Positions 49,317 through 64,000 of a DNA stretch of 64,000 nucleotides are shown here, piece by piece; positions within the stretch are counted from its first letter, which is position 1; each line of letters opens with the position of its first letter. The notes under the pieces were generated by a model. That model searched no databases. It was not told the DNA's origin and saw only the letters and a program-made list of their open reading frames with translations. A program made the position numbers and the translations under genes. The stretch is taken from contig NZ_PEIG01000002.1 of the NCBI RefSeq assembly GCF_002749975.1, positions 186,001 to 250,000 of the forward strand, read 5' to 3'. Origin of the DNA: Gloeocapsopsis sp. IPPAS B-1203. Lineage in GTDB: Bacteria; Cyanobacteriota; Cyanobacteriia; Cyanobacteriales; Chroococcidiopsidaceae.

Positions 49317-50990
49317 ATGATTGCAACACCCACTTCTTCTACCAACTCTTTATGGCGCACAATCCGACCAATCGGTGCTGCGACACTGCATGGCATAGCG
49401 TTTGTAGATGGCAAAGTTATTGCTATCGATACGATCAAAGGTCATTTACTAGAAATTGATCCTGCTAATGACAATACAACAATTATTAATCCTCATGCTA
49501 CTGCTGAATTTTTAGATGCGACTGGAATAGCACTGTGGGAAAATACACTCTGGTTAACGCGGGAGAACACAGTTTACTGCTGTCAATTTGGTGAGTTTAA
49601 GTTGCAAGAATTCGTGACTTTACCATATCCTGCAAACGGTGTTGCTGTGTGGCAAGACACAGTTTATGTGACTTGTCAAAAGATGGGTGACATTCTGATT
49701 TTTGATCGGCAAACAAAAAGCCAAATTACCCAATTTTTCGCCCCAGGGGTTGGTGTAGAAAATATTACAGTTCGTGATGAAGAGTTATGGGTTTGCGATA
49801 CAACTGAACAAAGTGTTTATTGTCTTGACCGCGCTACCGGAGACATTAAATTTAGTGTATTAACTCCGTTTGCTTCTCCTACAGGTTTAGCATTTTATCG
49901 CGATCAGGGTAGTGAAACTCTTTATGTCGCCTATGCTGATGAAGAAGCTTATATTCGCGATAATCCGAATGCCGAACCATCTCACGAATTAACTTATCGC
50001 GATCGCACATTTATTCATCCTTTAGACTATCACTACAATCCTACTGAGCATTTTGCTGTCTCCAACGGCTACTTACTGGAGATGATTTATACTGAGGAAA
50101 TTGCCCCGCTAGAAGATGTTTCTGCTTTGCAGCAAGTAGAATGGCGCATTGCTTTACCAGCAGAAACTGATCGTCAAAAAGTCAAACACATTGAACCTGT
50201 CGGTTTACCCTTCACAGAAGAAGTTGTAGAAGGACAGCGAGTAGCAGTCTTTAAATTTGATAGTCTTCAACCCAGCGAAAGACATATCTTTGGCTGGAAA
50301 GCATTAGTCGAGGTACGCGGAATTAAGTATCGTTTAACTCCCAGAGATGTTGAAGATCTTCCCAACTTATCACTAGAGTTTCAATCCCGCTATTTAGTAG
50401 ATGATGATGAATTAGCGATGGATCAACTCGTTGTCCGTCGTGCAGCGAAAGAAGCTGTAGGAACAGAAACAAATCTTCTTCGTAAAGTTTATAAAATTCG
50501 TAACTATGTTTATGACGAACTATCCTACGGAATTAAACCACATATTGATACACCTGATGTCGTTTTAGATCGCGGTATTGGCTCGTGTGGCGAATATGTT
50601 GGTGTCTTACTTGCATTATTGCGTCTTAATGGTATCGCTTGCCGGACAATTGGTCGATACAAGTGTCCGCCGTATGCCGAACAGCAAGGGATTCCGCTGC
50701 AACCAGATTTTAACCATGTTTGGCTAGAGTTTTATGTACCAGGACTAGATAAGTGGCTACCTATGGAGTCTAATCCTGATGATGTGGGAGAAAATGGTCC
50801 TTATCCTTCACGCTTTTTTATGGGATTAGCTTGGTATCACATAGAAATTGGTAAAGGAATACCATTTGAAACAGTCACTAGCAAAGGTTTACCGCTAGAG
50901 GACATTTCGCTTGGTGATATTGCAATCAACCATATCCGTTTCACCATTGTTAAAGAGTTGCTACCTGATTCAAGAGGAGCGAGGGAGTAG
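49317..50990 (+). CDS. Transglutaminase-like protein with beta-propeller N-terminus
   Basis: About 557 residues from ATG 49317 (MIATPTSSTNSLW). The N-terminal half (about 20-230) has repeated WENTLWLTR/VWQDTVYVT/RDEELWVCD units of a beta-propeller. The C-terminal half is a transglutaminase-like cysteine peptidase domain: Cys near 424 (GIGSCGEYVGVLLALLRLNGI), His near 467 (FNHVWLEF) and an acidic residue in LPMESNPDD. It lacks a signal peptide. The role is probably proteolysis or amide exchange of unknown targets. The last residues SRGARE and the stop lie in a polypurine repeat. Confidence 0.85.
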   Translation: MIATPTSSTNSLWRTIRPIGAATLHGIAFVDGKVIAIDTIKGHLLEIDPANDNTTIINPHATAEFLDATGIALWENTLWLTRENTVYCCQFGEFKLQEFVTLPYPANGVAVWQDTVYVTCQKMGDILIFDRQTKSQITQFFAPGVGVENITVRDEELWVCDTTEQSVYCLDRATGDIKFSVLTPFASPTGLAFYRDQGSETLYVAYADEEAYIRDNPNAEPSHELTYRDRTFIHPLDYHYNPTEHFAVSNGYLLEMIYTEEIAPLEDVSALQQVEWRIALPAETDRQKVKHIEPVGLPFTEEVVEGQRVAVFKFDSLQPSERHIFGWKALVEVRGIKYRLTPRDVEDLPNLSLEFQSRYLVDDDELAMDQLVVRRAAKEAVGTETNLLRKVYKIRNYVYDELSYGIKPHIDTPDVVLDRGIGSCGEYVGVLLALLRLNGIACRTIGRYKCPPYAEQQGIPLQPDFNHVWLEFYVPGLDKWLPMESNPDDVGENGPYPSRFFMGLAWYHIEIGKGIPFETVTSKGLPLEDISLGDIAINHIRFTIVKELLPDSRGARE

Positions 50991-51172
50991 GGGCGAGGAG
51001 CGAGTCAAAGATTGAACCACAAGATTTCCCAGTTGATGTTTTTCCCCTCGTTCAAGAAGTCCCTGACTCCTCGCACCCTTTTGCCATCGGGGGCTTTATA
51101 CTGATTAACGGGGCTAGTTTTGTTGTATCTTCCCCTCGCGCTCCTACTCCCTCGCTCCTCGCCCCTTCTTCG
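50973..51172. repeat. MITE-like element with polypurine inverted repeats
   Basis: GAGGAGCGAGGGAGTAGG at 50974-50991 recurs as its reverse complement at 51143-51160, enclosing about 150 bp with no gene. It overlaps the end of the transglutaminase gene. It could be a small non-autonomous element, or simply two oppositely oriented copies of the polypurine repeat. Confidence 0.5.
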
Positions 51173-51301
51173 GTAGAGTACAGTGGCACTCAATTGTAAA
51201 TTTGAATTGCTCTTACCCCTTACTCCATACCCTTCACGCTAGATTTTGTGTTAAATTAGCAGCCGTGAGTCAGATTCGGTTGAAAGCTTTGTTTTTGACT
51301 A

Positions 51302-51346
51302 CAGAACGTTTTTTCTGGGTTGACAGGCATATCTCCGGAACTGGAG
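51302..51346 (+). promoter_or_regulatory. Structured 5' leader of the RNA-binding protein gene
   Basis: Two small hairpins: CAGAA with TTCTG (51302-51318), and CTCC-GGAACT-GGAG (51333-51346). They lie in the leader ending 34 bp before the start codon. Cold-induced rbp genes in cyanobacteria have long structured leaders; this assignment is by analogy. Confidence 0.4.
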
Positions 51347-51380
51347 CTTTACAACGAAATTGATTTTTTGGAGATATTGA

Positions 51381-51698
51381 ATGTCGATCTACGTAGGTAA
51401 TTTATCCTACCAAGTTACTCAAGAAGATATCCTTGCAGTTTTTGGAGAGTACGGTAACGTTAAACAAGTTCAAGTTCCTACTGACCGTGAAACAGGTCGT
51501 CCCCGTGGTTTTTGTTTTGTAGAAATGTCTTCTGAAGCAGAAGAAACCGCAGCGATTGATGCTTTAGATGGCGCTGAGTGGATGGGACGTAGCTTAAAGG
51601 TAAACAAAGCCAAACCCCGTGAAGACAGAGGTAATCGTTTCAGAGACAATCGTAGTGGCGGTGGTAATGGCAAATTTTCGCCGCGGGGACGCTATTAG
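51381..51698 (+). CDS. rbp: RRM-type RNA-binding protein (Rbp)
   Basis: 105 residues. One RNA recognition motif with RNP2 IYVGNLSYQ and RNP1 RGFCFVEMSS (about 2-80), then a Gly/Arg-rich tail (FRDNRSGGGNGKFSPRGRY). This is the cyanobacterial Rbp family, cold-inducible and RNA-binding. The S21 gene follows about 290 bp downstream, the known rbp-rpsU arrangement. A GGAG RBS lies 7 bp upstream. Confidence 0.95.
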   Translation: MSIYVGNLSYQVTQEDILAVFGEYGNVKQVQVPTDRETGRPRGFCFVEMSSEAEETAAIDALDGAEWMGRSLKVNKAKPREDRGNRFRDNRSGGGNGKFSPRGRY

Positions 51699-51733
51699 GA
51701 CGTGAGAGGTGAGGGGCAAGTGGTTAGTAATTA

Positions 51734-51784
51734 GTTTTGAGTTTTGTTAGCGTAGCGGTGCCTTAGCACGTTTTGAATTTTGAG
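51734..51784. repeat. TTTTGAG tract with the same palindromic insert (copy 2)
   Basis: The same GTTAGCGTAGCGG and GTGC-CTTA-GCAC insert inside TTTTGAG units as at 5273-5325. It lies in the rbp-rpsU spacer. Confidence 0.8.
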
Positions 51785-51987
51785 TTCTCAAGAGTGTTAG
51801 ATTTTGAATTTTGAATTAAAAGAAGTGTCTTAACTCATAACGAGTAACTCTCTTAACTCATAACTCCCCAGCTTCCTTTGCTTTCTCTGCTCTACAATTG
51901 ACCTCTGATCCATCTTTAAGCTGAACTTTTAGATCGACCTAAAGCAGCACTACAATTTAGATTAGTTGTATTCAAAAAGGAGCAATA

Positions 51988-52167
51988 ATGACCCAAGTGG
52001 TTTTAGGAGAAAATGAGGGTATTGACTCAGCTTTGCGGCGATTTAAACGCCAAGTTTCAAAAGCTGGCATTCTCGCAGATGTGAAATATCATCGGCATTT
52101 TGAAACACCCCAAGAAAAGCGCAAGCGTAAGGCAGTTGCAGCTCGACGTAAAAGACGTTTTAGATAA
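51988..52167 (+). CDS. rpsU: 30S ribosomal protein S21
   Basis: 59 residues beginning [19 protein letters not shown] and ending in a basic tail [16 protein letters not shown], as expected for S21. AAAAGGAG precedes ATG 51988. S21 promotes mRNA pairing with 16S rRNA. It follows the rbp gene, a linkage seen in many cyanobacteria. Confidence 0.93.
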
Positions 52168-52342
52168 GATTATTACCAGTTGTGCTTGACATCGTTCAGT
52201 TCGGCAAGTCACTGGAATAACATCAAAAGTATTTATTGATGTGAGCAAGCGGACTTTGTCATTGTACACAAGTCCGCTTTAGTTCTTGTTATGCTTCTAA
52301 GTTTCCTTTCCAACGCTCAAAATTGCTACAACAAGTCAGAAG

Positions 52343-53236
52343 TTAGTTAGTGACAACATAGGAACCTCTTGTTAATTCATCGACTAGAGAAGGGGCTTGA
52401 GGCTGCCAATTTAATATTTGTTGGGCTTTCGCTCCGCTTACATGTTGATCTAACACAAGTGCATCGGCGAAAGCTCCCATTACAGTCCTTGCCTCATCTA
52501 GCTGCCAAGACTTTACCTGACCTGGAATTCCTGCTGCATAGCTGACGAGTTGTGCGATTTCACCTAATTGCATCACTTGATCGTCCGCAGCAATAAATAT
52601 TGAGCCTGATTCAGCTTCTAACGCAGCTACATAGTAATGGGCTAAATCATCGACATGAATTAACGTCCAGCGATTCTCGCCTGTGCCAACGTACTGCACA
52701 ACACCATACTGACGCGCTGCTTCTACCATCATGCCGATAATTCCGCCACCTCGACCATAAACTAATGCGGGTCGGATAACGATCGCCCGAATGTTGCGAT
52801 CGCGAGCATTCAACACCAGCGACTCCAGATGCGATCGCCAAGCAATCAATGGAGTTGGATCGAGGGGGCTATCTTCAGTTGCCACTTGATTACCTGTATT
52901 GCCCAACAGCCAAATCCCAGTTGTGTAGATAAAAGTTTTCCCTGTACCGCTCAAAGCATCTAAAATCGTTTCTACTGCCAACTGTTCAATCTGTGGCATT
53001 TCTGCATCATTAGTAGATGCAGCATGAATCACAGCATCAACTTGTTGAAGTGCTTCAGCCATGCTTGTAGGGTTGCGTAAGTCTCCGCGCAATGCTTGAA
53101 TATTGCGATCTAGTTTGTGAACTGCATCATCTGAACGCGCTAATCCTATCACTTGATGTCCAGAGGCTTGTAAAGCTTCTGCTACAGCACTGCCAATGTA
53201 TCCAGTTGCGCCTGTTACGAGAACTTTCATTGTCAT
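52343..53236 (-). CDS. NAD-dependent epimerase/SDR extended protein
   Basis: 297 residues. Rossmann motif KVLVTGATGYIGSAVAEAL at about 4-22, TTGIWLLG, and FIAADDQVMQLGEIAQLV. The extended-SDR fold of the NmrA/UDP-sugar epimerase type; its canonical Tyr-Lys pair is not obvious, so it could be an NAD(P)-sensor-type or atypical reductase. Upstream, a TTGGTTG-N2-CAACCAA operator (53257-53272) suggests control by the adjacent TetR gene. Confidence 0.85.
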   Translation of the reverse strand: MTMKVLVTGATGYIGSAVAEALQASGHQVIGLARSDDAVHKLDRNIQALRGDLRNPTSMAEALQQVDAVIHAASTNDAEMPQIEQLAVETILDALSGTGKTFIYTTGIWLLGNTGNQVATEDSPLDPTPLIAWRSHLESLVLNARDRNIRAIVIRPALVYGRGGGIIGMMVEAARQYGVVQYVGTGENRWTLIHVDDLAHYYVAALEAESGSIFIAADDQVMQLGEIAQLVSYAAGIPGQVKSWQLDEARTVMGAFADALVLDQHVSGAKAQQILNWQPQAPSLVDELTRGSYVVTN

Positions 53237-53256
53237 TCTCCAATACTAAAACTTAG

Positions 53257-53272
53257 TTGGTTGACCAACCAA
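53257..53272. promoter_or_regulatory. TetR operator copy 1 (TTGGTTG-N2-CAACCAA)
   Basis: A perfect dyad TTGGTTG-AC-CAACCAA 20 bp upstream of the SDR start codon. The same dyad with a different 2-bp centre is at 54020-54035. Confidence 0.7.
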
Positions 53273-53287
53273 TAACTTGAAAATTAA

Positions 53288-53344
53288 GACGCCCTCTGAC
53301 TAAAGTCGGAGCTATCCAAGCAAAGTGTACCTTCGTACACTAAA
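53288..53344. repeat. Dispersed two-hairpin repeat, copy 3
   Basis: Degraded first hairpin (CTGACTAAAGTCGG) and second hairpin GTGTAC-CTTC-GTACAC, whose bases differ from the GTCCAC/GTGGAC stem of the other copies yet still pair. Confidence 0.8.
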
Positions 53345-53359
53345 ACAAGATGTCTATTA

Positions 53360-53395
53360 GTAAGTCCACCTCCGTGGACTTTGTTTGTTTAGCTG
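53360..53395. repeat. Partial hairpin of the same repeat family
   Basis: AGTCCACCTCCGTGGACT (53363-53380) with TTTGTTTGT following, the second hairpin of the dispersed repeat alone. Confidence 0.7.
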
Positions 53396-53418
53396 TGAAT
53401 TCGTTCGCAAGCACATTC

Positions 53419-54012
53419 TTATTGATTCTTCAGTTGAGCCACAAACATCTGCGTGAGAACCTGATAGGCACTGTCGAGATCGAATTGTGGATCTACCAGT
53501 TTTTGAAGTGCCAAACCATCAAAAGATGCAAGTAACACAGCGGCGACAGCTTCAGGATTGGCGATCGCGTCTCCAGCAATTTGCCGCACTAAGCGAGCAA
53601 TACATTGCCGCCCTGTGGAAAGCATCAGGCTAGTCGCATCATGGAAGTTAGAATTGCGTAAGCCAAGGGCAAACAACTCACATCGCAAACGAAACCACTC
53701 TGGTTCACTAGTAACGCGCTGTTTAGGCTCTATAAACGTGACTTCTTGCAACTGCTCTTTAGTTAATTCATTGCACCATCGCTCAACTTCCTTGACATAT
53801 CGTTCTCCAGCCTCAATTAAGACTTCCTGAAGCAGATGATCCTTACTCTCGAAGTAGTAGTGAATTAAACCTGGAGCAACACCAGCTACACCCGCAATTT
53901 CTTTCATCGTGGCTGAATCGTAGCCCTTTTCAGCCAAAAGTTGATATGCCGCTAAGACAATTTGAGCACGATTATCTTGATTCTTGAGAGTAGACTTCTT
54001 ATTCAGATACAG
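53419..54012 (-). CDS. TetR-family transcriptional regulator
   Basis: From the helix-turn-helix on (TTG 53937) it is 172 residues: ATMKEIAGVAGVAPGLIHYYFESKDHLLQEVL is a typical TetR HTH. The usual first helix is encoded just upstream in the same frame (KKSTLKNQDNRAQIVLAAYQLLAEKG), but no ATG, GTG or TTG opens it. In-frame TAA is at 54013-54015, so the only candidates are CTG 54012 or 54006. The frame is shown to CTG 54012. The conventional start would be TTG 53937 and would lose helix 1. A matching operator lies immediately upstream (54020-54035), so autoregulation is likely. The C-terminal ligand domain is not assignable. Confidence 0.8.
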   Translation of the reverse strand: MYLNKKSTLKNQDNRAQIVLAAYQLLAEKGYDSATMKEIAGVAGVAPGLIHYYFESKDHLLQEVLIEAGERYVKEVERWCNELTKEQLQEVTFIEPKQRVTSEPEWFRLRCELFALGLRNSNFHDATSLMLSTGRQCIARLVRQIAGDAIANPEAVAAVLLASFDGLALQKLVDPQFDLDSAYQVLTQMFVAQLKNQ

Positions 54013-54019
54013 TTATTGG

Positions 54020-54035
54020 TTGGTTGGACAACCAA
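54020..54035. promoter_or_regulatory. TetR operator copy 2 (TTGGTTG-N2-CAACCAA)
   Basis: A perfect dyad TTGGTTG-GA-CAACCAA directly upstream of the TetR frame. It is the same sequence as at 53257-53272 apart from the centre. Confidence 0.7.
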
Positions 54036-54122
54036 ATACTAACACTAATCTTATTTTTCTGCAACCCTCAAAGATTGTTACTAAAAACTTAATGTCAGTG
54101 TACTGATATATAGCGAGTCAGT

Positions 54123-54752
54123 CTAAGAATCTTTAGTAGCAACGACAGTGTTATAGCGATTCATGGCTTTTTCTACTCCCTGCTTCAAACACAGTTCAAC
54201 ACACTCAACTACTAACGGTAAAAGCTTAGTGACAACTTGATTTTCTGTTGGAGAGAATCGTCCTAAAACATGAGAAATTGTTTTACCATTGTTAGCAGCT
54301 TGTTCTGGCTTACCAATGCCAATCCGTAATCGGGAAAAGTTTTGCGTACCGAGGTGGGCGATCGCACTTTTCATGCCATTATGTCCCCCCGCCGAACCTG
54401 ATAGGCGCAACCGCATTTTTCCTACAGGTAAATCCATATCGTCATAAATGACTAAAATCGACTCTGGAGGCAGTTTATACCAATCAGTAACTGCACGGAT
54501 TGCCTGTCCTGAAAGATTCATGTAAGTCAGTGGTTTCAGTAAGCGAATTTTTTCACGGTTTGGGCTGATACCTTCGCCGAATTCTCCCTGAAACTTGCGA
54601 TTTTCTGATAAGGGGATATTCCAGGAACGTGCCAAAGCATCCACCGCCGCAAAGCCGATGTTGTGTCGAGTTTGTTCGTATTTAGGTTCTGGATTCCCCA
54701 ATCCGACAATTAGTTGAGGAACAACCACTGATTGTGCAGCAGCCTTTGTCAT
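54123..54752 (-). CDS. pth: Peptidyl-tRNA hydrolase
   Basis: About 209 residues from ATG 54752 (MTKAAAQSVVV). Signature LIVGLGNPEPKYEQTRHNIGF with catalytic His in TRHNIG, then LKPLTYMNLSGQAIR, ILVIYDDMDLPVG and GGHNGMKS. It recycles peptidyl-tRNA. An in-frame upstream TTG at 54785 would add 11 residues. It follows tatA by a few bases on the same strand. Confidence 0.96.
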   Translation of the reverse strand: MTKAAAQSVVVPQLIVGLGNPEPKYEQTRHNIGFAAVDALARSWNIPLSENRKFQGEFGEGISPNREKIRLLKPLTYMNLSGQAIRAVTDWYKLPPESILVIYDDMDLPVGKMRLRLSGSAGGHNGMKSAIAHLGTQNFSRLRIGIGKPEQAANNGKTISHVLGRFSPTENQVVTKLLPLVVECVELCLKQGVEKAMNRYNTVVATKDS

Positions 54753-54787
54753 GACTAGGTTATCTAATTCCTTCTCAACTCCCAAGC

Positions 54788-55060
54788 TTAGCTTTGTGAG
54801 GACGAAGTTGTATTATTTTCTGAAGCTTCAGCCGCTGCAATTTGCTTTGGTTCTAATTGTGCTGTTGTTTGTACAGCTTGCTCAATTTGTTCGGCTTCGC
54901 GTTTAAACTCATTTTCAAACTCTTTAGAAGCTTCTTGAAATCCACGCACTGCTTTACCCATGCTACGACCAATCTCTGGTAGCTTTTTAGGTCCAAAGAT
55001 TAACAGTGCCACAATCATAATCAAAGCCATTTCTGGTAAACCTATTCCAAAAATATTCAT
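54788..55060 (-). CDS. tatA: TatA/B/E-type twin-arginine translocase subunit
   Basis: 90 residues. One N-terminal helix (LPEMALIMIVALLIFGPKKLPE), the LIFGPKKLPEIGRSMG signature and an amphipathic helix, then an acidic/Gln-rich tail. TatA multimerises to form the Tat translocation pore for folded proteins, here probably of thylakoid and plasma membranes. It lies between psbH and pth as in many cyanobacteria. Confidence 0.93.
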   Translation of the reverse strand: MNIFGIGLPEMALIMIVALLIFGPKKLPEIGRSMGKAVRGFQEASKEFENEFKREAEQIEQAVQTTAQLEPKQIAAAEASENNTTSSSQS

Positions 55061-55145
55061 GCTTCAGTTCTCCTTTATTTAATCTGTATTTACTAATCAC
55101 TAGTCACTAGCCACTCACTACCCAGTCTCCAGTATAAAACCTCAT

Positions 55146-55168
55146 AAAAAAACCCCGTCAAGTCGGGG
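55146..55168 (-). terminator. Rho-independent terminator after psbH
   Basis: On the minus strand CCCCG-ACTTGA-CGGGG is followed by T7. It lies 40 bp after the psbH stop and separates psbH from tatA. Confidence 0.9.
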
Positions 55169-55207
55169 AAATAAAAAGGGTTATTCCAGCTTTGTTACCA
55201 AAAGAAA

Positions 55208-55417
55208 TTAACCACCCATGTTTGTCCAATCTGGAGAAATATCTGGTCTTTCAAAGAGCAGCGAGGAGTTGTAGATTTGTAGAATAATCAGCAGGAATAC
55301 GAAAAATAACACCATAAATACTGCCATCAATGGCGTTGTTCCCCAGCCACGGGTCACTTTACCATACTCAGAATTCAAGGGTTTGAGAATATCTCCCAAC
55401 CAAGTCCGTTGTGCCAT
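55208..55417 (-). CDS. psbH: Photosystem II protein PsbH
   Basis: 69 residues with [26 protein letters not shown] then one membrane helix ([21 protein letters not shown]) and a lumenal tail. This is PsbH, a PSII core subunit needed for electron transfer and stability. It has the usual cyanobacterial length without the plant phospho-Thr extension. psbN is divergent, 86 bp away. Confidence 0.97.
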
Positions 55418-55503
55418 GAGTCACCTTAAGATTCGTTGCAACAGCATTTTTTAATCTTCTGTAATATTCTATAGGAATAGCACTCATAATTTTAATCTAG
55501 CCC

Positions 55504-55635
55504 ATGGAACCCGCAACAGTTCTTAGCATTTCTCTCGCCGCCATTGTGATCGCGATTACAGCATTGTCTATCTATACCTCATTTGGTCCTCCTTCTAAGG
55601 AGTTGAGCGATCCTTTTGAAGATCATGAAGATTAA
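55504..55635 (+). CDS. psbN: Photosystem II assembly factor PsbN
   Basis: 43 residues, MEPATVLSISLAAIVIAITALSIY then FGPPSKELSDPFEDHED. The single helix and FGPPS.LxDPFxxHxD tail are diagnostic. PsbN is needed for PSII assembly rather than being a structural subunit. It is antisense-oriented to psbH as in chloroplasts. Confidence 0.97.
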   Translation: MEPATVLSISLAAIVIAITALSIYTSFGPPSKELSDPFEDHED

Positions 55636-55636
55636 G

Positions 55637-56338
55637 TCACGCTTGGTTTAGAGGACGTTTGAGCGCGAGTGTCAATCCATCAGCGATCGCTACTAAACTC
55701 AGTGCGACTCGCTGATCGCGATGCAGAAATTGATTCAACTCTCGAATTGCGATCGTACATGCATCATCATCAAAATCAGGATCGATGACTCTGCCACACC
55801 AAAGCACATTATCAATCGCGATCAATCCACCTGGACGGATGAGTTGCAGAGATTTCTCATAATAATCTTTGTACTCGACTTTATCAGCATCAATAAAGAC
55901 AAAATCAAAGGTTTCTGCCTGTCCATCCAATAGCAGTTGATTCAGAGTTTCGACCGCAGGTGCAATGTGCCAGTCAATTTTATGCGTGACACCTGCGGCT
56001 TGCCAGTAGCGACGCGCGATCGCGGTATCCTCTTCACTTATATCACAGGTAACTACGATGCCATCTTCGGGTAACGCCAGTGCCAACCACAGCGTGCTGT
56101 ATCCCGTGAATGTACCGATCTCCAGCGTTTTCTTGGCTCCAATAAGCTGCACCAGCAATGCCATAAACTGTCCTTGCTCAGGAGAAATCTGCATATCGCC
56201 TTCAGGATGTTGGGCGGTTTCTTGCCGTAGTTGGGACAAAATTTCGGTTTCGCGTAGGGAAACAGAGAGCAAGTAGTCGTAGAGATTAGGTTGGAGTTGT
56301 CCAGCAGCGTCGGTGAGATCTAGGGTTTTGTTTGACAT
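55637..56338 (-). CDS. Class I SAM-dependent O-methyltransferase
   Basis: 233 residues, O-methyltransferase family 3 (caffeoyl-CoA-like). Motif I TLEIGTFTGYSTLWLALALP near 75-95, acidic VVTCDISEE, and FDFVFIDADKVEYKDYYE with the divalent-metal ligands. It uses a catechol-type or similar hydroxyl substrate; the actual one is unknown. It is convergent with psbN by 1 bp. Confidence 0.9.
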   Translation of the reverse strand: MSNKTLDLTDAAGQLQPNLYDYLLSVSLRETEILSQLRQETAQHPEGDMQISPEQGQFMALLVQLIGAKKTLEIGTFTGYSTLWLALALPEDGIVVTCDISEEDTAIARRYWQAAGVTHKIDWHIAPAVETLNQLLLDGQAETFDFVFIDADKVEYKDYYEKSLQLIRPGGLIAIDNVLWCGRVIDPDFDDDACTIAIRELNQFLHRDQRVALSLVAIADGLTLALKRPLNQA

Positions 56339-56391
56339 AGTGGTGTGCTTTTACAATAAAATTACGAATTTTCTTAAGAGTGGTGTTGGTG

Positions 56392-56520
56392 ATGGTACAG
56401 TCTAATCGATGGCTTCACCTACCGAGCAGCGATGAGCTTCCCTGACGGCGATATTTGACATCCGAAGAACAGCTTGCCCGCTATCGCGAACGATTTGGTG
56501 AATTGCGATTACATCAGTGA
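56392..56520 (+). pseudogene. Uma2-like gene remnant
   Basis: A single frame reads MVQSNRWLHLPSSDELP, a stop at 56443-56445, then RRYLTSEEQLARYRERFGELRLHQ and TGA. The N-terminus resembles the start of Uma2/DUF820 endonuclease-like proteins. The middle is absent, so this is an internally deleted remnant. The family assignment is tentative. Confidence 0.45.
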
Positions 56521-56622
56521 ACAGTAAAATTGATAACTGATAGAGGAGTGCTTTTTTCTAAGATATTAAACTCATATGCAAAGATAAAAATACTACCCAT
56601 AATTGGGGTAATACATAGCTAT

Positions 56623-56904
56623 TTATTTTTTATAAATATCTCCTCTCGCACCAATTGCATAAATTTCGATATCTTTGGATTCAATATCGACTGTAAAAAT
56701 AATCCTATTTTTACCTATACGTAATCTGTAAAATCCCTCCCAATCACCTTTCATTTTTTTGATATCTAGTTCTGTAAAGGGGATAATTCCTTGTTCTTCG
56801 ATAGCAATAACAATTTTTTTGAGTTGTTCGCGAATATTTTCAACATCTTCGGGATTTGCTTTTTGTAAAAACTTAATTCCTTGCTTACGAAACTTTATTG
56901 CCAT
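56623..56904 (-). CDS. RelE/ParE-type toxin
   Basis: 93 residues. FRKQGIKFLQKANPEDVENIREQL, then MKGDWEGFYRLRIGKNRIIFTVDIESKDIEIYAIGARGDIYK. The GFYRLRIGKNRIIF core and the terminal strand are typical of RelE-superfamily mRNA interferases. It overlaps the antitoxin gene by 20 bp. It is intact. Confidence 0.85.
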   Translation of the reverse strand: MAIKFRKQGIKFLQKANPEDVENIREQLKKIVIAIEEQGIIPFTELDIKKMKGDWEGFYRLRIGKNRIIFTVDIESKDIEIYAIGARGDIYKK

Positions 56905-57097
56905 TTTTTAGCCAATCAGTCATATCAATTACTTCATCATCCGCATATAAAGAAGGTACACCGAATTCGGCTTCAAGTTCGCACTGTTCTTCATCGCTTA
57001 CGTAAGGTATTAGAATTTGACACAGGTGAAATCTTTCTTCTTTTAAAACTTCGCGCATAGTCTCTTTAATCAATGCTTTTAATTCTTGAATTTCCAC
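56885..57097 (-). CDS. Antitoxin of the RelE-type pair
   Basis: 70 residues, acidic, with MEIQELKALIKETMREVLKEE as a helical N-terminus and a Glu/Asp-rich C-terminal part. The antitoxin family is not certain. The 20-bp overlap with the toxin gene is the expected TA arrangement. Confidence 0.75.
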   Translation of the reverse strand: MEIQELKALIKETMREVLKEERFHLCQILIPYVSDEEQCELEAEFGVPSLYADDEVIDMTDWLKNGNKVS

Positions 57098-57401
57098 ACT
57101 TATACCTGTTAATCAAAGTTAAATTATATATTCATCGTACCTAACTTCAGTTTTTGATAGGGGAATTTGGGCAAAAATAGCAGACTATAATATTTCAGGA
57201 ATCTGTTTCCAAATTGCATTTCCTTTATTACTTTTGATATAAAGTTGTATAAAATCTATTAAGGCTGTAGCACTTTCTCAGTTGAGTGAAGCATTGTTGG
57301 ATTTTACGAGTGTGGATGATTTACAAGCTTGGTTGGAGAAAAGATCGCACTGATGGTATTGCATTGCCTCTTTGTTTACTCGTTTACCGCCTCACCTTTC
57401 C
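57098..57401. other. Spacer with a DUF4351-like remnant
   Basis: About 300 bp. Positions 57267-57353 encode VALSQLSEALLDFTSVDDLQAWLEKRSH and a stop, the tail of a DUF4351-like (Rpn/transposase-associated) protein, repeated at 59310-59397. The rest is AT-rich. Confidence 0.6.
57267..57353 (+). pseudogene. DUF4351-like C-terminal remnant, copy 1
   Basis: EALLDFTSVDDLQAWL matches the LxxxLLDFxxxxDLxxWL end of DUF4351 proteins. Only the 3' end is present. A copy at 59310-59397 shares about 50 bp of nearly identical DNA. Confidence 0.6.
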
Positions 57402-57761
57402 TCAGTAGTCTCCTAGCAACTTTTCGAGCAGCGTGTAGATGTCCTTTTTATCTTTATCCTTGCGCCGACCAATGCCAACCACTAAAACAAGCACTTGTGC
57501 CTGCTCAACTTTGTAGATGATGCGATAGCGCTACCCAACAGCCCGCACACTCCGAAATCCTGCAAGATTGTCTACCAGGGCTTTACCTTGCTTTTCTGGC
57601 TCAGTCTTAAGCTGGTCAATGCGTTCTGCTAGCTTCGCTTGTTCTCGCCGATCTTTAATCACAGCCAACATTTCTAGTGCCAGTGGTGTTAGTTGAATCT
57701 CATATTCAAGCGGATTGGACGATTCGCTCATAGTCCTAGCTGTGCTTTGGCACTCTGCCAA
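57402..57761 (-). pseudogene. RelE-type toxin with an in-frame nonsense codon
   Basis: MSESSNPLEYEIQLTPLALEML (ATG 57731; upstream in-frame ATG 57761) to NLAGFRSVRAVG, then TAG at 57531-57533 where relatives have Gln (GQRYRI), then RYRIIYKVEQAQVLVLVVGIGRRKDKDKKDIY to TGA at 57402-57404. It is full length apart from the CAG-to-TAG-type change, so the toxin loses its C-terminal catalytic strand. It overlaps the Phd-like antitoxin end, as in an intact TA operon. Confidence 0.88.
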
Positions 57762-57994
57762 GAAATCCTGTTGCCTTGTTCTAATTGCAAGATACTTTGG
57801 CGCAGTTGAGTGACAAACTCAGTATCGCTGAGGATGTCCAGTGTTTCCAACAGGGCTGTGAGATGGTTGTAACTAAGAGCAGCGATCGCAGGAACACCAT
57901 CTTGGGTAATAATGATGATGGGTTCTTCGGTCAGTTCATCAGCTAAAGTAGGGAGTTGCTGCTGAGCTTGGGCGATCGTGAGGCGTTTTGGCAT
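57728..57994 (-). CDS. Phd/YefM-type antitoxin
   Basis: 88 residues. MPKRLTIAQAQQQLPTLADEL, EPIIIITQDGVPAIAALSY is the Phd/YefM fold. It overlaps the toxin reading frame. With its toxin broken, this antitoxin is probably maintained only by chance, or as an orphan. Confidence 0.85.
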   Translation of the reverse strand: MPKRLTIAQAQQQLPTLADELTEEPIIIITQDGVPAIAALSYNHLTALLETLDILSDTEFVTQLRQSILQLEQGNRISWQSAKAQLGL

Positions 57995-58325
57995 AGGAAT
58001 AGGGCTTGGTGAGCATTGAATTTATTCTAATATTACGGGGCATTGAAGCGGATTTTACTACAAGGGAATTGACTTAATCTGTCGCCTGGGAGCGTCACCT
58101 CCTTAAATTTTGTCGTGAGAGAACGCGCTGAGTAGTGAGGAGGCGATCGCCTTAATGTTCTGGTCGTTTTTCTGATGGAGCAATTCTGCTATGGCCTATG
58201 GCCAGCAAGCAACGCAGAGGCTTCGCCAACGCCGGATTGGCAGATGAATAGGGTGTGTTTAAGCATGAGTTTAGGTCGCATGATACATTATGAATACTTA
58301 CTCTCAATGTGTATTCTTAATCGCA
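57995..58325. other. Spacer with remnant A
   Basis: About 330 bp of mixed repeats. At 58232-58266 (minus) lies a DUF1636-like gene start, MLKHTLFICQSG, and GGCTTCGCCAACGC-type repeat DNA. No intact gene. Confidence 0.6.
58232..58266 (-). pseudogene. DUF1636-like gene start, remnant A
   Basis: ATG 58266 reads MLKHTLFICQSG. Preceded by TAA and a 4-base spacer, as in copies C and D. The second Cys of the CxxC motif is Gly. Confidence 0.5.
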
Positions 58326-58574
58326 ATGGTCTATCGCCGAATTAATATCACACTCCCTACAGAAACGCTGCAAAAGATTGACAGTTTTGCCCCCAAGGGC
58401 GATCGCAGTCGATTTATCCATGCTGCAATCCAGGCTTACCTCGCTCAGGTTCAAACAGAGAAACTACGGCAACAGTTAAAAGAAGGGGCGATTTGTCGGG
58501 CTGAGCGCGACTGCCAGCTTGCTGAGGATTGGTTTTCCCTTGAGGAAGAGGCATGGCAGCAAAACGCAAATTAA
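58326..58574 (+). CDS. MazE-like antitoxin (ribbon-helix-helix)
   Basis: 82 residues from ATG 58326 (MVYRRINITLPTETLQKIDSF), preferred to ATG 58290. NITLPTETLQKIDSFA is a ribbon-helix-helix DNA-binding motif, followed by RSRFIHAAIQAYL and a C-terminal acidic tail that would neutralise the toxin. It overlaps mazF by 22 bp. Confidence 0.85.
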   Translation: MVYRRINITLPTETLQKIDSFAPKGDRSRFIHAAIQAYLAQVQTEKLRQQLKEGAICRAERDCQLAEDWFSLEEEAWQQNAN

Positions 58575-58924
58575 CCTATCCTACGCGGGGAGAGATCTAT
58601 CTGGTTAGCTTCGACCCAACGGTTGGGACTGAAATTCAAAAAACACGACCAGCCCTGGTTCTGCAAAACGATATTGCCAATGAATATAGTCCCATTACGA
58701 TCGTTGCTGCAATTACTTCCCAATTTGGTGATCCGCTGTATCCAACTGAAGTACTGGTTCGCTCACCAGAGGGTGGCTTAACTGTAGATTCGGTGGTTCT
58801 GCTCAACCAAATTCGCTCGATTGATAAACAGCGATTGGTCAAGCGCCTTGGCAAACTAACTGATGAAACAGTAGCGCTAGTCAATCAGGCAACGCAGATC
58901 AGTTTGGGATTGATTGAAATCTGA
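58553..58924 (+). CDS. MazF/PemK-type endoribonuclease toxin
   Basis: 123 residues. YPTRGEIYLVSFDPTVGTEIQKTRPALVLQND and TVDSVVLLNQIRSIDKQRL are the MazF/PemK signature. Sequence-specific mRNA interferase. It overlaps mazE. Intact, so the mazEF pair is likely functional. Confidence 0.93.
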   Translation: MAAKRKLTYPTRGEIYLVSFDPTVGTEIQKTRPALVLQNDIANEYSPITIVAAITSQFGDPLYPTEVLVRSPEGGLTVDSVVLLNQIRSIDKQRLVKRLGKLTDETVALVNQATQISLGLIEI

Positions 58925-59055
58925 GGACAAAGATTTTACGGCGATCGGTTTTGAGGTTTTGGGGACATAGCTGTATTCTCTTGCTGAGTAATTGCGTGAG
59001 GGTGGAGAGGTTGATCTCGATCGCCTTTGCAGATTGGTCTTCGGGGGAGCGAACG

Positions 59056-59089
59056 CAGATTTGCAGATAAAGCAGGTGTGTTTGGGCAT
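59056..59089 (-). pseudogene. DUF1636-like gene start, remnant B
   Basis: ATG 59089 reads MPKHTCFICKSA. The second Cys is Ala. Preceded by TAA and a 3-base spacer. Confidence 0.5.
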
Positions 59090-59309
59090 GAGTTATGGCG
59101 GAATGGTAGATGTTTCTGGGCGATCGTCAATTAAGCGTTGCGGTTGGCAGGAGAACTACAGGAGTGAATCTCTAAAGGCTGTTATTACTAAAATTAGATA
59201 AAGCTTTTAACAGTTTGCTCATGCTTCGTTTGGGCGCTGAATAGAGATTTTGTCGGAAGCGGTTGGGAGAATTCTCCTAGGAGATACGTGCGTCGGTTTC
59301 GGGTTTGCT

Positions 59310-59397
59310 ATTGTCTGCATTGGAATTGAGTGAGGCATTGTTGGATTTTACGAGTGTGGATGATTTACAAGCTTGGTTGGATGAAATATCGCACTGA
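59310..59397 (+). pseudogene. DUF4351-like C-terminal remnant, copy 2
   Basis: LLLSALELSEALLDFTSVDDLQAWLDEISH and stop. It shares GCATTGTTGGATTTTACGAG and following bases with 57283-57334. Confidence 0.6.
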
Positions 59398-59458
59398 TGA
59401 TGAGGTTGCATCGCCTTTTTGTCTACCTCTTTTCATATTTCCTCAACAGATTAGTCTT

Positions 59459-59507
59459 TGGAAGAAGGGTGACAGATTTTGCAAACAAACAAGATGTGTT
59501 TATGCAT
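59459..59507 (-). pseudogene. DUF1636-like gene start, remnant C
   Basis: ATG 59507 reads MHKHILFVCKICHPSSKD then stop. It keeps the CKIC (CxxC) pair, expected for the metal-binding start of DUF1636-type proteins. It is 4 bases after the stop of a FecB remnant. Confidence 0.55.
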
Positions 59508-59511
59508 AGGT

Positions 59512-59646
59512 TTATGGTGCGTTAACTAAATATTTGTACAAGTCATCAATCACTGCATCAGCTGCAGATGGATATCGTCCTCTCCAAACTACAGGGTCTA
59601 CATGATAAACACGATTTTGTTGAAATTGTAGGATTTGCAGATGAAT
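59512..59646 (-). pseudogene. FecB-like gene, 3' end remnant
   Basis: The frame reads LQFQQNRVYHVDPVVWRGRYPSAADAVIDDLYKYLVNAP and stop. It aligns with the intact FecB C-terminus VQKNQVYIVSEGAWRGYNILAANVVLDDIEKYLINMP. Its left edge fuses directly to remnant D. Confidence 0.75.
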
Positions 59647-59663
59647 AACGTGAGTTTGAACGT
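59632..59663 (-). pseudogene. DUF1636-like gene start, remnant D
   Basis: Reads [ACG]FKLTLFICKSY. The start codon is ACG instead of ATG and the second Cys is Tyr. It begins 4 bases after the intact fecB stop codon and runs into the second FecB remnant. Confidence 0.55.
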
Positions 59664-59667
59664 CGGT

Positions 59668-60684
59668 TTAGGGCATATTGATTAAGTATTTCTCAATGTC
59701 ATCTAGTACTACATTAGCAGCAAGTATATTGTATCCTCGCCAAGCTCCTTCACTAACAATATATACCTGATTTTTTTGAACTGCTCTCATCTGAGACCAT
59801 AGAGGTTTCTGCTGAAATTTCTTAAGGATTGATTCATTATCTCTTTCTGTTCCAATAAATAAAACATCACTATCAAGTTCCGGTAGGGCTTCTTCGGAAA
59901 TTGGGAGTTCATCAGAAATTGGGAGAGAATTCTGAGATAATGTATTAGATAGCGGAACTGGAGGAAACTGAAATCCAACATCACTCAATATTTCACCAGA
60001 AAAAGAATCTTTGCTAGAAAGAAATAATAAATAACCATCATAAACTTGGAGATATGAAGCATTAAGTTCACCGTGCTGATGATTCATTTTCTGTTTCAGT
60101 TCTTCAGCACGATGTCTGTACTCGTCTATTAGTTGATTGGCAATCTCTACTTTGTTAAGCATTGTTGCCGCCTGAATAAATTCTTGTTTCCAATCATATG
60201 AACCAGATGAAGTTTTTATCGTAGGTATTAATATTGTGGAAGAGATTTGTGATAGTAGCTTATAATTTTTTTGACTTATGTCTCTAGACCAACCAATAAT
60301 CAAGTCAGGGTTTAACAACAATATTTTTTCTAAATTTGGCTCGCGGTTAATGGTTGGAATCGCTTCAACTCCCTTTAGCCTATTCTTGATGTATGAAATA
60401 TCAAAGGAATCTTTACGTGCGAAGACTGCAATGGGTTTAACATTTAGTGCCAGGGCATAAGACAAAGCCTGACTATCTATGATGACAAGTCGTTGTGGAT
60501 TGAGAGGAATGCAAGTTTCTCCCATTGCGTGTTGCATCATTCGGCATTCATCTGCTGGAGGTTTGGCAGACTGAGGATTGGGAGAATGAGCAGTGTGACT
60601 GATGCAAGCAGTGGTTAATAAAGCTATCAGAATTCCCACTAGAAAAGACCGAAGTGAGGACAATCCAAAGCTACGTAACTTCAT
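59668..60684 (-). CDS. Iron-siderophore ABC transporter substrate-binding lipoprotein (FecB-like)
   Basis: 338 residues. Lipobox LLTTAC with Cys27, then a bilobed binding protein: RLVIIDSQALSYALALNVKPIAV, LEKILLLNPDLIIGWSRD and a long C-terminal helix (EGAWRGYNILAANVVLDDIEKYL). It captures ferric siderophore in the periplasm. The permease and ATPase genes are not in this window. It starts 38 bp after the TonB receptor on the same strand. Confidence 0.92.
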   Translation of the reverse strand: MKLRSFGLSSLRSFLVGILIALLTTACISHTAHSPNPQSAKPPADECRMMQHAMGETCIPLNPQRLVIIDSQALSYALALNVKPIAVFARKDSFDISYIKNRLKGVEAIPTINREPNLEKILLLNPDLIIGWSRDISQKNYKLLSQISSTILIPTIKTSSGSYDWKQEFIQAATMLNKVEIANQLIDEYRHRAEELKQKMNHQHGELNASYLQVYDGYLLFLSSKDSFSGEILSDVGFQFPPVPLSNTLSQNSLPISDELPISEEALPELDSDVLFIGTERDNESILKKFQQKPLWSQMRAVQKNQVYIVSEGAWRGYNILAANVVLDDIEKYLINMP

Positions 60685-60722
60685 AGCAGATGTTTCCTAC
60701 CGATTAATATCAACGATCAAGG

Positions 60723-63401
60723 TCAAAACTCCCAGGAAATAGTTCCTAGCACAGTGAATGGTCTACCAGGGATGACTTCAAATTCACCAGGACTTTCAAA
60801 ATAGTCCACATTGAATAAGTTCGTGAAGTTGAGCGCAGCACGAAATTGCTCTCGTTGGTAAAAAATTGCAGCATCAGTGCGCAGATAGCTTGGCAATTCA
60901 AAGGTATTATCTAAATTCGCTTGGCGATCGCTTATATAGAACAATCCCAAGCCGAAGCCGAAGCCTTGTAATCCACCTTGTTGAATTTGATAGGTTGTCC
61001 AGAGGTTGAATGAATTTTCTGGAACATTCGCCAAACGATTACCCACGGGAAAAAGGTTGTCCTTGGTGAGCCGAGCATCTGTATAGGCATAGCCTGCAAT
61101 GATATTCCATCCAGGTAAGATTTCACCCCCAACATTAAATTCAATGCCTCGGCTGCGCTGTTCACCCGTTTGAATCGAGAAGCCTATATTGTCTGGATCA
61201 TCCGTCGGAACATTAGAGCGGGTCAGATTATAGAAGGCAAGAGTTGCTGAAAGTTGGTCATTTAAATCTGCCTTAACGCCCACTTCATACTGAGTCCCTC
61301 GCTCTGGTTCAAATGGACTGCCATCAAATGCATTTCCAAACAAGCTTGGAGTAAAGGAACGAGCATAACTGGCATACAGTGAAATTGGTTCAATCGGCTG
61401 ATAGACGATACCGACCCGTGGAGAAAATGCACTATCAGACTGACTATATGTGAAATCATCAACTCGACTCCGATTGTTGTAATCCTGGGTATCGTAGCGC
61501 AAACCCAGTAACAATTTTAGATTCTCTGTCAGGCTGACTAGATCTTGGATATAAATTCCAAGCGAATTGGTTTCGTAAGCATTATTAGAGCGGATTACAA
61601 AAGGTTCGGTTTCTGGTTGATTATACACAGGGTTAAACGCATCAATTGAACTAATGCCTCTACGTCTTCGTAAGTATGTTGCATCATCTCTATTCCAATC
61701 AACTCCAACTAGCAGTTGATGTCCAATGGAGCCAGTCAAGAAATTACCAGTGAGGTTTGTTGCCAAAAGATAGTTTGTGCCATCACCTTCATCAGCTATA
61801 CGAAGACGATTGAGAGTTCGATTATCAGCTTCTATGCTAATAGGAATAGCAACGTCAGCATCGTATGTCGAAAATCTGACTCGAAAGGCATTGCGTAACG
61901 ACCAATTGTCACTGAGTTGATGTTCTAGTCTATATCCGATTCTACTGTTAGTTATTCGGGCAAAGTCACCAGGTTCGCTATAGTTAGAGTTGCGAGGAAT
62001 TTCACCATTCGGATTCGGGAGGACAGTACCGACACTAGGTAAACCAGGATAAAATCCAGTATCGATGCTGGCATACTCTCCCTCTACAAATAGTTCTGTG
62101 CGATCGCCGAGCCTGAAACTCACTATTGGTGAAATACTTAAGGATTCTTTATCAAAAAAATCGATGAAACTATCGGAGTTTTCATAACCTGCATTCAGTC
62201 TGTAGAGCACTGATCTGGAATCATCCAATGGTCCTGATAAATCAACGTTTCCTCTATAGAAGGCATAATTTCCGATTGTTGCGTCTACTCGGTAAAAGGG
62301 GTCTTGAAGCGGCTGTTTAGTGACCAGGTTAATCGTTCCACCTGGGTTGGCGGAACCATACAGCACTGAAGCTGGACCTAGAAGAACTTCTACTCTCTCA
62401 ATATTGAATAGCTCGGTTCCAACTGTTGAGCCACTAACACTACCCACCCCATCAAACAACCCATCTCTGAGAATGTTTCCTGAATTTCTAGTGCTAAAAC
62501 CACGAATTGTAAAATCACTTATCGACGAATAAGCTCCTCTTTCTTGAGTGACGCCAGGGACATTTCTGAGAGCATCCTCTACACGAGTCGCTTGCTGATC
62601 CCGAATGACCTGCTGCGGTACTACCTGAATTGATTGGGGAATGTCACGAAGTGGGGTATCCGTTCTAGTTGCAGTGCTGGCATTCGGTACGCGATATCCT
62701 GTATCCTGCTGTCCCGTGACCAGCAATTCAATCGGCTCATCGCCCTGCGCTGCTGGTATTTCCTGTGGTGTTTCACTCGTCGTCGGCTGCTCACCTTCAG
62801 GCTGCTGTGATGGTTGCATTGCTGCAGCAGCAGATGTCAAACCAAAAATCAATCCTTCATCACTGTCAAATAACTCAACTGTTGGCAATCCTGTTTCACC
62901 TGCTACTGTCACCCGAATAGTATTAGCATCAAGGTTTGTAACTGTTATCTCACTAATCCCCTCAATAGGGCTTTGAGAACTAAATATGAACGCCTCGCCA
63001 TTGGGTAAACGCAATTGAGCATTAGGTATATCTGCGATAAAGTTATTTCCGATACTGCGATCGCTAATTTGAAGTTGTTCGCCCTGAGTTGTCTGTAATA
63101 TCACCTCCACACCTTTTTCTGTGGGATTAGCTTGTACACTCGTCACTTGTATAACATCCCTCTGGACGGAAGAGGGGTTGGTTGGGGCTGGCGACTGCAC
63201 TAACATAATTGCGCTAGTGCTAGGACGCTCTCTTTCACTAATTTGAGGAATCTCTCTAATTAACTGAGATTTACGTAATACAGATGTAATAGTTTTATCA
63301 TGATCCGGCTTTGCTACTTCTTGAGCCGTTACGCTCATAGCACCCCACAGCCAAACAGAACTTGTTAGTAATAAAATTTGCAATAAATTCTTTGGTTTCA
63401 T
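60723..63401 (-). CDS. TonB-dependent siderophore receptor with AMIN domain
   Basis: 892 residues. Signal peptide (about 1-26, SSVWLWGAMSVTAQE). An AMIN domain (about 85-190, VTSVQANPTEKGVEVILQTTQGEQLQI), common in cyanobacterial siderophore receptors. A TonB-box-like PIELLVTGQ precedes the plug (about 240-370, DIPQSIQVVPQQVIRDQQATRVEDALRNVPGV, GGTINLVTK). The beta-barrel ends with VLGTISWEF and a terminal Phe. It imports ferric siderophore through the outer membrane; the ligand is unknown. Candidate operators lie about 130-210 bp upstream. Confidence 0.94.
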   Translation of the reverse strand: MKPKNLLQILLLTSSVWLWGAMSVTAQEVAKPDHDKTITSVLRKSQLIREIPQISERERPSTSAIMLVQSPAPTNPSSVQRDVIQVTSVQANPTEKGVEVILQTTQGEQLQISDRSIGNNFIADIPNAQLRLPNGEAFIFSSQSPIEGISEITVTNLDANTIRVTVAGETGLPTVELFDSDEGLIFGLTSAAAAMQPSQQPEGEQPTTSETPQEIPAAQGDEPIELLVTGQQDTGYRVPNASTATRTDTPLRDIPQSIQVVPQQVIRDQQATRVEDALRNVPGVTQERGAYSSISDFTIRGFSTRNSGNILRDGLFDGVGSVSGSTVGTELFNIERVEVLLGPASVLYGSANPGGTINLVTKQPLQDPFYRVDATIGNYAFYRGNVDLSGPLDDSRSVLYRLNAGYENSDSFIDFFDKESLSISPIVSFRLGDRTELFVEGEYASIDTGFYPGLPSVGTVLPNPNGEIPRNSNYSEPGDFARITNSRIGYRLEHQLSDNWSLRNAFRVRFSTYDADVAIPISIEADNRTLNRLRIADEGDGTNYLLATNLTGNFLTGSIGHQLLVGVDWNRDDATYLRRRRGISSIDAFNPVYNQPETEPFVIRSNNAYETNSLGIYIQDLVSLTENLKLLLGLRYDTQDYNNRSRVDDFTYSQSDSAFSPRVGIVYQPIEPISLYASYARSFTPSLFGNAFDGSPFEPERGTQYEVGVKADLNDQLSATLAFYNLTRSNVPTDDPDNIGFSIQTGEQRSRGIEFNVGGEILPGWNIIAGYAYTDARLTKDNLFPVGNRLANVPENSFNLWTTYQIQQGGLQGFGFGLGLFYISDRQANLDNTFELPSYLRTDAAIFYQREQFRAALNFTNLFNVDYFESPGEFEVIPGRPFTVLGTISWEF

Positions 63402-63527
63402 TAGATACTCTACACACCTGGCAATATTACGGAAACAATGTCGGAAATCGACAAGTCATCCGTGACTCGTCCCCACACATGTCCTCACACCACAATTTCA
63501 AATTGATTTAGCTTCTAATAAGAAAAC

Positions 63528-63546
63528 TTCTCAATAAAGCTGAGAA
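63528..63546. promoter_or_regulatory. TTCTCA-N7-TGAGAA dyad
   Basis: TTCTCA at 63528-63533 pairs with TGAGAA at 63541-63546, about 130 bp upstream of the receptor start. A possible Fur or other repressor operator; it does not match a canonical Fur box closely. Confidence 0.35.
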
Positions 63547-63580
63547 TACAAGATTTGAAGAAGGTATTGTTGCCGCAAAC

Positions 63581-63611
63581 GGATTTTTTTCTGCCCGATC
63601 GGGATTTTTTT
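63581..63611. promoter_or_regulatory. Direct repeat GGATTTTTTT with 21-bp period
   Basis: GGATTTTTTT at 63581-63590 recurs at 63602-63611, start to start 21 bp, two helical turns. This is the layout of AraC-family operators. It lies about 180-210 bp upstream of the TonB receptor gene. Confidence 0.55.
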
Positions 63612-63754
63612 AGTGATGGTGCAACAACAAAGGGCGATCAATCGCTCAAAAAGACGGTTGAGGTGGGATCAAAACTGCCACAAAATTGTTCCCTATGAAA
63701 AACCTGATATAGCGGTATAAGGTAAATATCAAGGTTCAGAGTGCTTTAGAGTAC

Positions 63755-64000
63755 ATAGATTTATTACGGTTTGAATGGGACAACCAAAAAGCTCAAAAAG
63801 CATGGGGTTTCTTTTGATGAGGCAGCAACTATTTTTTACGATCCACTCTATTTAGAGGATTATGATGAAGCGCACTCTGACCAAGAGGATCGGTTTAAGA
63901 TTATTGGTATGTCAAGCAATGGACGCTTGCTAGTTGCCGCCTATAGTCAGCGAGTTGATAGGATAGGGATCATTAGTTCCAGACTAGCGACTAAAAATGA
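63755..64000 (+). pseudogene. BrnT-type toxin, frameshifted and cut by window edge
   Basis: ATA-DLLRFEWDNQKAQK then a frameshift near 63796, then KLKKHGVSFDEAATIFYDPLYLEDYDEAHSDQEDRF and GRLLVAAYSQRVDRIGIISSRLATKNE. This is BrnT. The start codon is ATA, a short deletion breaks the FEWDxxKAxxNxKKHGVSF core, and RIRIIS has become RIGIIS. The end lies at or beyond the window. Confidence 0.75.

Follow-up and report, generated by a model that had tools for sequence, protein, structure and literature searches.

Behind an intact TonB-dependent receptor (TBDT) gene and fecB, the window, by which we mean the whole 64-kb stretch of DNA analysed, holds what is very probably a graveyard of pseudogenes, in which several TBDT–fecB–DUF1636 units of different fecB lineages came to be neighbours, lost sequence through deletions and recombined at 74-bp ends of Rpn/DUF4351 genes. 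Four DUF1636 starts (remnants A–D), a second FecB end (FecB2) and a separate DUF1636 3′ end lie in the order and at the spacing of intact units elsewhere (Table 1). Their identity is established; the succession of deletions, an origin in tandem units and the cause of 5′ stub persistence are inferred. In kind, the phenomenon is ordinary gene loss, in which pseudogenes decayed and recombined; its novelty is modest and its documentation unusually good.

Table 1. Genes and gene remnants of the receptor–fecB locus, with positions in the window.
Feature	Position	Strand	Description
TonB-dependent siderophore receptor gene	60723..63401	−	892 aa; opens the surviving unit
fecB1, intact	59668..60684	−	338-aa periplasmic siderophore-binding protein; C terminus DDIEKYLINMP
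Remnant D, DUF1636 start	59663–59632	−	4 nt past the fecB1 stop; matrix 31.7 bits
FecB2 remnant	59512..59646	−	Last ~45 codons of a second fecB; frame still open
Remnant C, DUF1636 start	59507–59459	−	MHKHILFVCKICHPSSKD, then stop; 4 nt past the FecB2 stop; matrix 44.1 bits
Rpn-family (DUF4351) nuclease gene 3′ end	59248..59399	+	Antisense to fecB; holds the right D2 copy, 59326–59399
Remnant B, DUF1636 start	59089–59056	−	MPKHTCFICKS; TAA 3 nt upstream; matrix 18.4 bits
Toxin–antitoxin (TA) module 1	58331..58924	+	Ribbon-helix-helix/HicB-like antitoxin and PemK/MazF toxin; between A and B
Remnant A, DUF1636 start	58266–58232	−	MLKHTLFICQS; TAA 4 nt upstream; matrix 21.6 bits
TA module 2	57531..57994	−	Phd/YefM antitoxin (PF02604, 2.2e-7) and putative ParE-like partner
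Second Rpn/DUF4351 gene end	57282..57355	+	Left D2 copy; abuts the DUF1636 3′ end
DUF1636 gene remnant, 3′ third	57146..57286	−	About residues 74–125; two stops
TA module 3	56623..57097	−	ParE toxin (PF05016, 6.4e-5) and RelB-like antitoxin

The surviving unit is well defined. The receptor matches the Pfam families TonB_dep_Rec_b-barrel (2.6e-73), Plug and AMIN as well as NCBIfam TIGR01783 (4e-126), and fecB1 matches Peripla_BP_2 (4.9e-24), with an orthologue of 67–68% amino acid identity in the syntenic block of G014, a relative from another genus of the same family. An earlier sequence-only reading of this DNA had described one intact fecB with no intact partner, and locally fecB1 is indeed without an intact DUF1636 gene; the unit, which that reading had described as fecB–DUF1636, also includes the receptor gene upstream.

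Several lines of evidence identify the remnants. First, the four related minus-strand gene starts that the sequence-only reading had reported are real, and DUF1636 (PF07845), the family it had named, is the right one. A position matrix was derived from 12 DUF1636 starts that lie outside the window, in this genome and in relatives. Over both strands of the 64 kb its four highest-scoring sites are C, D, A and B, each on the minus strand; the fifth reaches 6.0 bits. In 60 randomised windows the maximum score averages 8.6 bits and reaches 23.0 bits at the highest, which places A and B individually at the edge. Thus C and D are DUF1636 starts beyond doubt, and the identity of A and B, which are short segments, relies on their company, strand and context. 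Repeat detection groups the four, which share one orientation over a 1.4-kb span, into a single family (D1). When the extended segments are aligned with one another, a check that the same reading had proposed, all six pairs exceed 999 or 1000 of 1000 shuffles; the pairs with B score 43–52 against shuffle means of 20–21, and the pair of A with D scores 67 against a mean of 24, A being most like the fecB1–D junction. Searched against the whole 5.9-Mb genome, a consensus start returns A, B and D at E values from 7e-6 to 6e-4 and no further copy below E = 2, ruling out a dispersed DNA repeat.

Second, A–D are remnants and not members of DUF1636. They carry the N-terminal M-KHTLFVCKSC motif of intact relatives as judged by the start matrix (61–67% for C in tblastn), and the similarity ends after about 11–22 codons through a stop or loss of frame, leaving no complete open frame. 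D starts with ACG where the G014 orthologue has ATG, and some 11 codons later it gives way to the FecB2 end; A and B have lost the second cysteine of the CxxC pair. Scanning the translations of the four starts against Pfam, a check also proposed earlier, gave no DUF1636 match because the sequences are too short. Whereas DUF1636 genes beside siderophore uptake genes (L086, L107, L121 and L019) have the same start type and nearly the same spacing to fecB (2–5 nt) with the domain intact, here 11–22 5′ codons and one 3′ end are left, and the full domain is untranslatable.

Third, C and D keep the junctions of intact units. C and D each begin 4 nt after a FecB stop codon, as had been claimed, and both stops are TAA; intact pairs elsewhere have 2–5 nt in between, on the same strand. 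The TAA codons before A and B were absent from the sequence-only reading, as were the DUF1636 3′ end and the two Rpn/DUF4351 ends. The TAA of A is preceded by a possible fecB1-like end of about 40 bp (58267–58310), weak on its own, with 25 of 2000 shuffles reaching its score; upstream of the TAA of B, alignment revealed no recognisable FecB coding sequence. The DUF1636 3′ end contains the best PF07845 match in the window (57161–57286), at 26.8 bits under the curated cut-off of 31.6 bits, and reaches 54.8% in tblastn against an intact DUF1636 of the same genome and 81–84% in DNA against the downstream DUF1636 genes of the relatives G002 and G006. Remnant B is possibly the start of the gene that ends there.

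Both the same genome, at other loci, and its relatives contain intact TBDT–fecB–DUF1636 units whose spacing is almost the same. Three of the four intact DUF1636 genes of this genome directly follow a fecB, and a further one, decayed and recognisable to about codon 67, stands after the fecB at C17 (L008). Intact fecB–DUF1636 neighbours, which the sequence-only reading had suggested seeking in related genomes, are found in G014, G001 and G002, with 3–5 nt between the genes. Across 79 fecB 3′ ends from seven related genomes, mostly from five of them, a DUF1636-type start lies within 22 nt in 24 cases (p < 0.001, compared with positions lying further downstream). Roughly 8 of these starts lead into a gene that is complete or nearly so, and some 16 are stubs, which can be recognised over as many as about 67 codons. 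Loss of DUF1636 behind fecB with retention of its first codons is therefore repeated in the family and not specific to the window. Further afield, a scan of named genomes with a FecB query found no relatives, whereas a receptor query did find units: Nostoc parmelioides (L178) has three TBDT–fecB pairs with DUF1636 after the last, Myxacorys almedinensis (L180) has TBDT–fecB–DUF1636–TBDT–fecB, and Goleter apudmare has a DUF1636 stub directly after fecB. The N. parmelioides and M. almedinensis arrays show the same TBDT–fecB–(DUF1636) order, head to tail, as the window, in which by contrast one unit is intact and the others are reduced to ends. The DUF1636 product is probably a thioredoxin-like Fe–S or metal-binding protein; its fold has been assigned previously (PMC4520260).

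The two Rpn/DUF4351 gene ends in the window correspond to a 74-bp direct repeat (D2; 95% identity between the copies) that encodes the C terminus of an Rpn-family DUF4351 protein. D2 matches the DUF4351 profile (PF14261) at 3e-6 and 27.6 bits, above the cut-off of 25, and in a genome-wide profile search the window scores 41.6 bits at 59248–59379 and 33.1 bits at 57243–57335. Unlike the known genes of this recombination-promoting nuclease/putative transposase family (TIGR01784, with DUF4351), of which the D2 repeats are the C-terminal ends, the window keeps ends only. In four genomes, 15 of 36 DUF4351 loci are found no more than 2 kb past a fecB end, against 0.24 expected; all 15 are convergent with fecB, the Rpn genes lying 143–996 bp past it, and some of the 15 are orthologous, so not all are independent events. 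Loci with this placement include L153, L154, L155, L157, L159, L160, L167 and L168, as well as the window (59248–59399 and 57243–57355). Similarity among the Rpn genes is not correlated with that among their fecB neighbours (rho −0.09), which leaves co-amplification of Rpn and fecB as one unit unsupported. The block shared among Rpn loci is mostly the Rpn open reading frame alone, and a comparison of this conserved block across the loci showed no common termini. Similarity uncoupled from fecB, together with a shared block that is mostly the reading frame, suggests Rpn movement that was independent of fecB, a lead and not a demonstrated mechanism. In E. coli, work on Rpn concerns RecA-independent transfer (PMC5350276) and phage defence (PMC10327210), not insertion beside fecB.

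Rpn/DUF4351 genes may, as a tentative possibility, be gene-sized mobile units that settle repeatedly and convergently at the 3′ end of fecB–DUF1636 in this cyanobacterial family, their insertion and recombination producing the partial duplications and truncations of DUF1636 here and elsewhere. If the Rpn–fecB link reflects a targeting preference, the unsettled mobility of the Rpn-family 'transposases' would become testable. We consider it unlikely that insertion of an Rpn/DUF4351 gene into a fecB–DUF1636 unit left a duplicated fecB stop and DUF1636 start on both sides. Such an insertion would fit the convergent placement and the fecB-independent similarity of the Rpn genes, and in the relative G006 two Rpn copies are flanked by a 133-bp repeat (88%), present in the stub and in the intact DUF1636 downstream and beginning at a TAA that directly precedes the start codon, a layout also seen in G002. 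However, at two loci of G002 (L155 and L159) a DUF1636 that is complete or nearly so precedes the Rpn gene and no flanking copy is present, loci L153, L157 and L160 are without any DUF1636, and the conserved block is the Rpn open reading frame without common termini.

Reshuffling at the Rpn ends, as the preferred history has it, fits the junctions of relatives. In G014, a 14-kb syntenic locus (L075) covers window positions 50001–63960 and has D, FecB2, C, one D2 copy and the DUF1636 3′ end, whereas window 57356–59325 is absent. Stub C is present in L075 and also in G002 (L076), where a fuller state survives: a whole fecB, stub C, a full-length antisense Rpn gene and a DUF1636 with one frameshift. 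An intact tandem pair of units was not found in relatives at the exact locus. Of the flanks of the two D2 copies in the window, G014 has the outer ones only (DUF1636 3′ end–D2–C), and G001, at another locus, has the inner ones only: the Rpn body that flanks the right copy, then D2, then the sequence from 57356 onwards, at 97% identity over 840 bp. Given these reciprocal junctions, the D2 flanks in the window match exactly those expected from recombination between two D2 copies. For the 57356–59325 segment, gain here and loss in G014 both fit the three genomes compared. As the 2-kb stretch with A and B is bounded by two Rpn ends and absent from G014, recombination between different units, and not only tandem duplication, appears to have built the layers.

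The second FecB end points the same way. D runs into a decayed FecB 3′ end, as the sequence-only reading had described, and this end is real (LQFQQNRVYHVDPVVWRGRYPSAADAVIDDLYKYLVNAP, followed by a stop). It closes with DDLYKYLVNAP, of the DDLYKYLVN type, whereas fecB1 is of the DDIEKYL type; in DNA, a 44-bp stretch is 93% identical to FecB of the relative G013, and 50 bp are 84% identical to the C2:554335 locus of the same genome. Because the FecB2 and fecB1 subtypes are not the same, D and C derive from separate units, and the A–D layers are not copies of one unit. The earlier proposal that a fecB–DUF1636 unit was duplicated several times and then decayed thus stands as to several decayed units and falls as to their being copies of one. 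Simple local tandem duplication of a single unit followed by decay would account for four same-orientation starts within 1.4 kb and for the best resemblance of A (score 67) being to the fecB1–D junction, and tandem units are known in other genomes, but the differing FecB2 subtype, its good matches to FecB at other loci and an A/B segment that is missing in G014 and flanked by Rpn ends make this history quite improbable.

The layering of units from different fecB lineages probably unfolded in steps. Paralogous units would have come side by side, like the tandem arrays of other cyanobacteria; deletions would then have joined the DUF1636 of unit 1, at codon ~11 (D), to the 3′ terminus of fecB2 and truncated that of unit 2 (C) at codon ~18–22 against a convergent Rpn/DUF4351 gene; and recombination at the 74-bp Rpn end would then have joined the ~2-kb segment with A, B and two TA modules. 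The receptor and fecB presumably stay intact because they still serve siderophore uptake, and a DUF1636 partner may be expendable here, since the genome has intact copies at other loci. The 5′ stubs probably outlast the rest because they touch a selected fecB, so that longer deletions would be harmful; their apparent persistence probably also reflects the CxxC start being the easiest part to recognise. That the short starts are themselves functional, whether as a regulatory element on the 3′ side or as a CxxC peptide of ~20 aa retained after fecB, is very unlikely: stubs do recur behind many fecB genes, and between G014 and the window the stub region is 90–96% identical against 72–89% for fecB, but the start codon, cysteines and frame are broken differently between copies (ACG in D, second cysteine lost in A and B), and the high identity continues into plainly dead sequence and rises to 97.9% beyond it, as expected of a recent exchange tract.

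The locus clearly illustrates how a little-understood partner gene was lost time after time beside expanded siderophore-binding genes, and suggests that many fecB loci can do without DUF1636. Its empty, donor-like and combined junctions are concrete material for studying how TA modules and Rpn genes accumulate at one type of site.

Some features of the surroundings merit description. This 5.9-Mb genome has about 28 fecB-like matches at E ≤ 1e-20, an unusually large expansion that is common to some members of the family (25 in G014) and absent from others. Within the syntenic block, fecB1 (59668–60684) is among the parts most diverged from G014, mostly at 72–86% DNA identity against at least 85% for most neighbours; diversifying selection or gene conversion may be the cause. 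By contrast, window 55291–57385 is mostly 94–100% identical to the G014 locus, with flanking genes at about 85%, and is likely a recent exchange tract that includes the ParE/RelB-like module. A GC-rich palindrome-like stretch at 58150–58225 (GGCGTTGGCGAAGCCTCTGC...GGCCATAGGCC) cuts A; we take it to resemble the small repeats common in cyanobacteria. The TA modules are assigned with varying strength. In module 1 the toxin matches PF02452 at 4.5e-32, and the HicB_lk/RHH matches of the antitoxin are weak; in module 2 the partner gene had no significant Pfam match, its ParE-like name coming from position only; in module 3 the RelB_like match of the antitoxin (0.0025) is below its cut-off. Together they place three different TA modules within 2.3 kb (56623–58924), amid dead gene ends.
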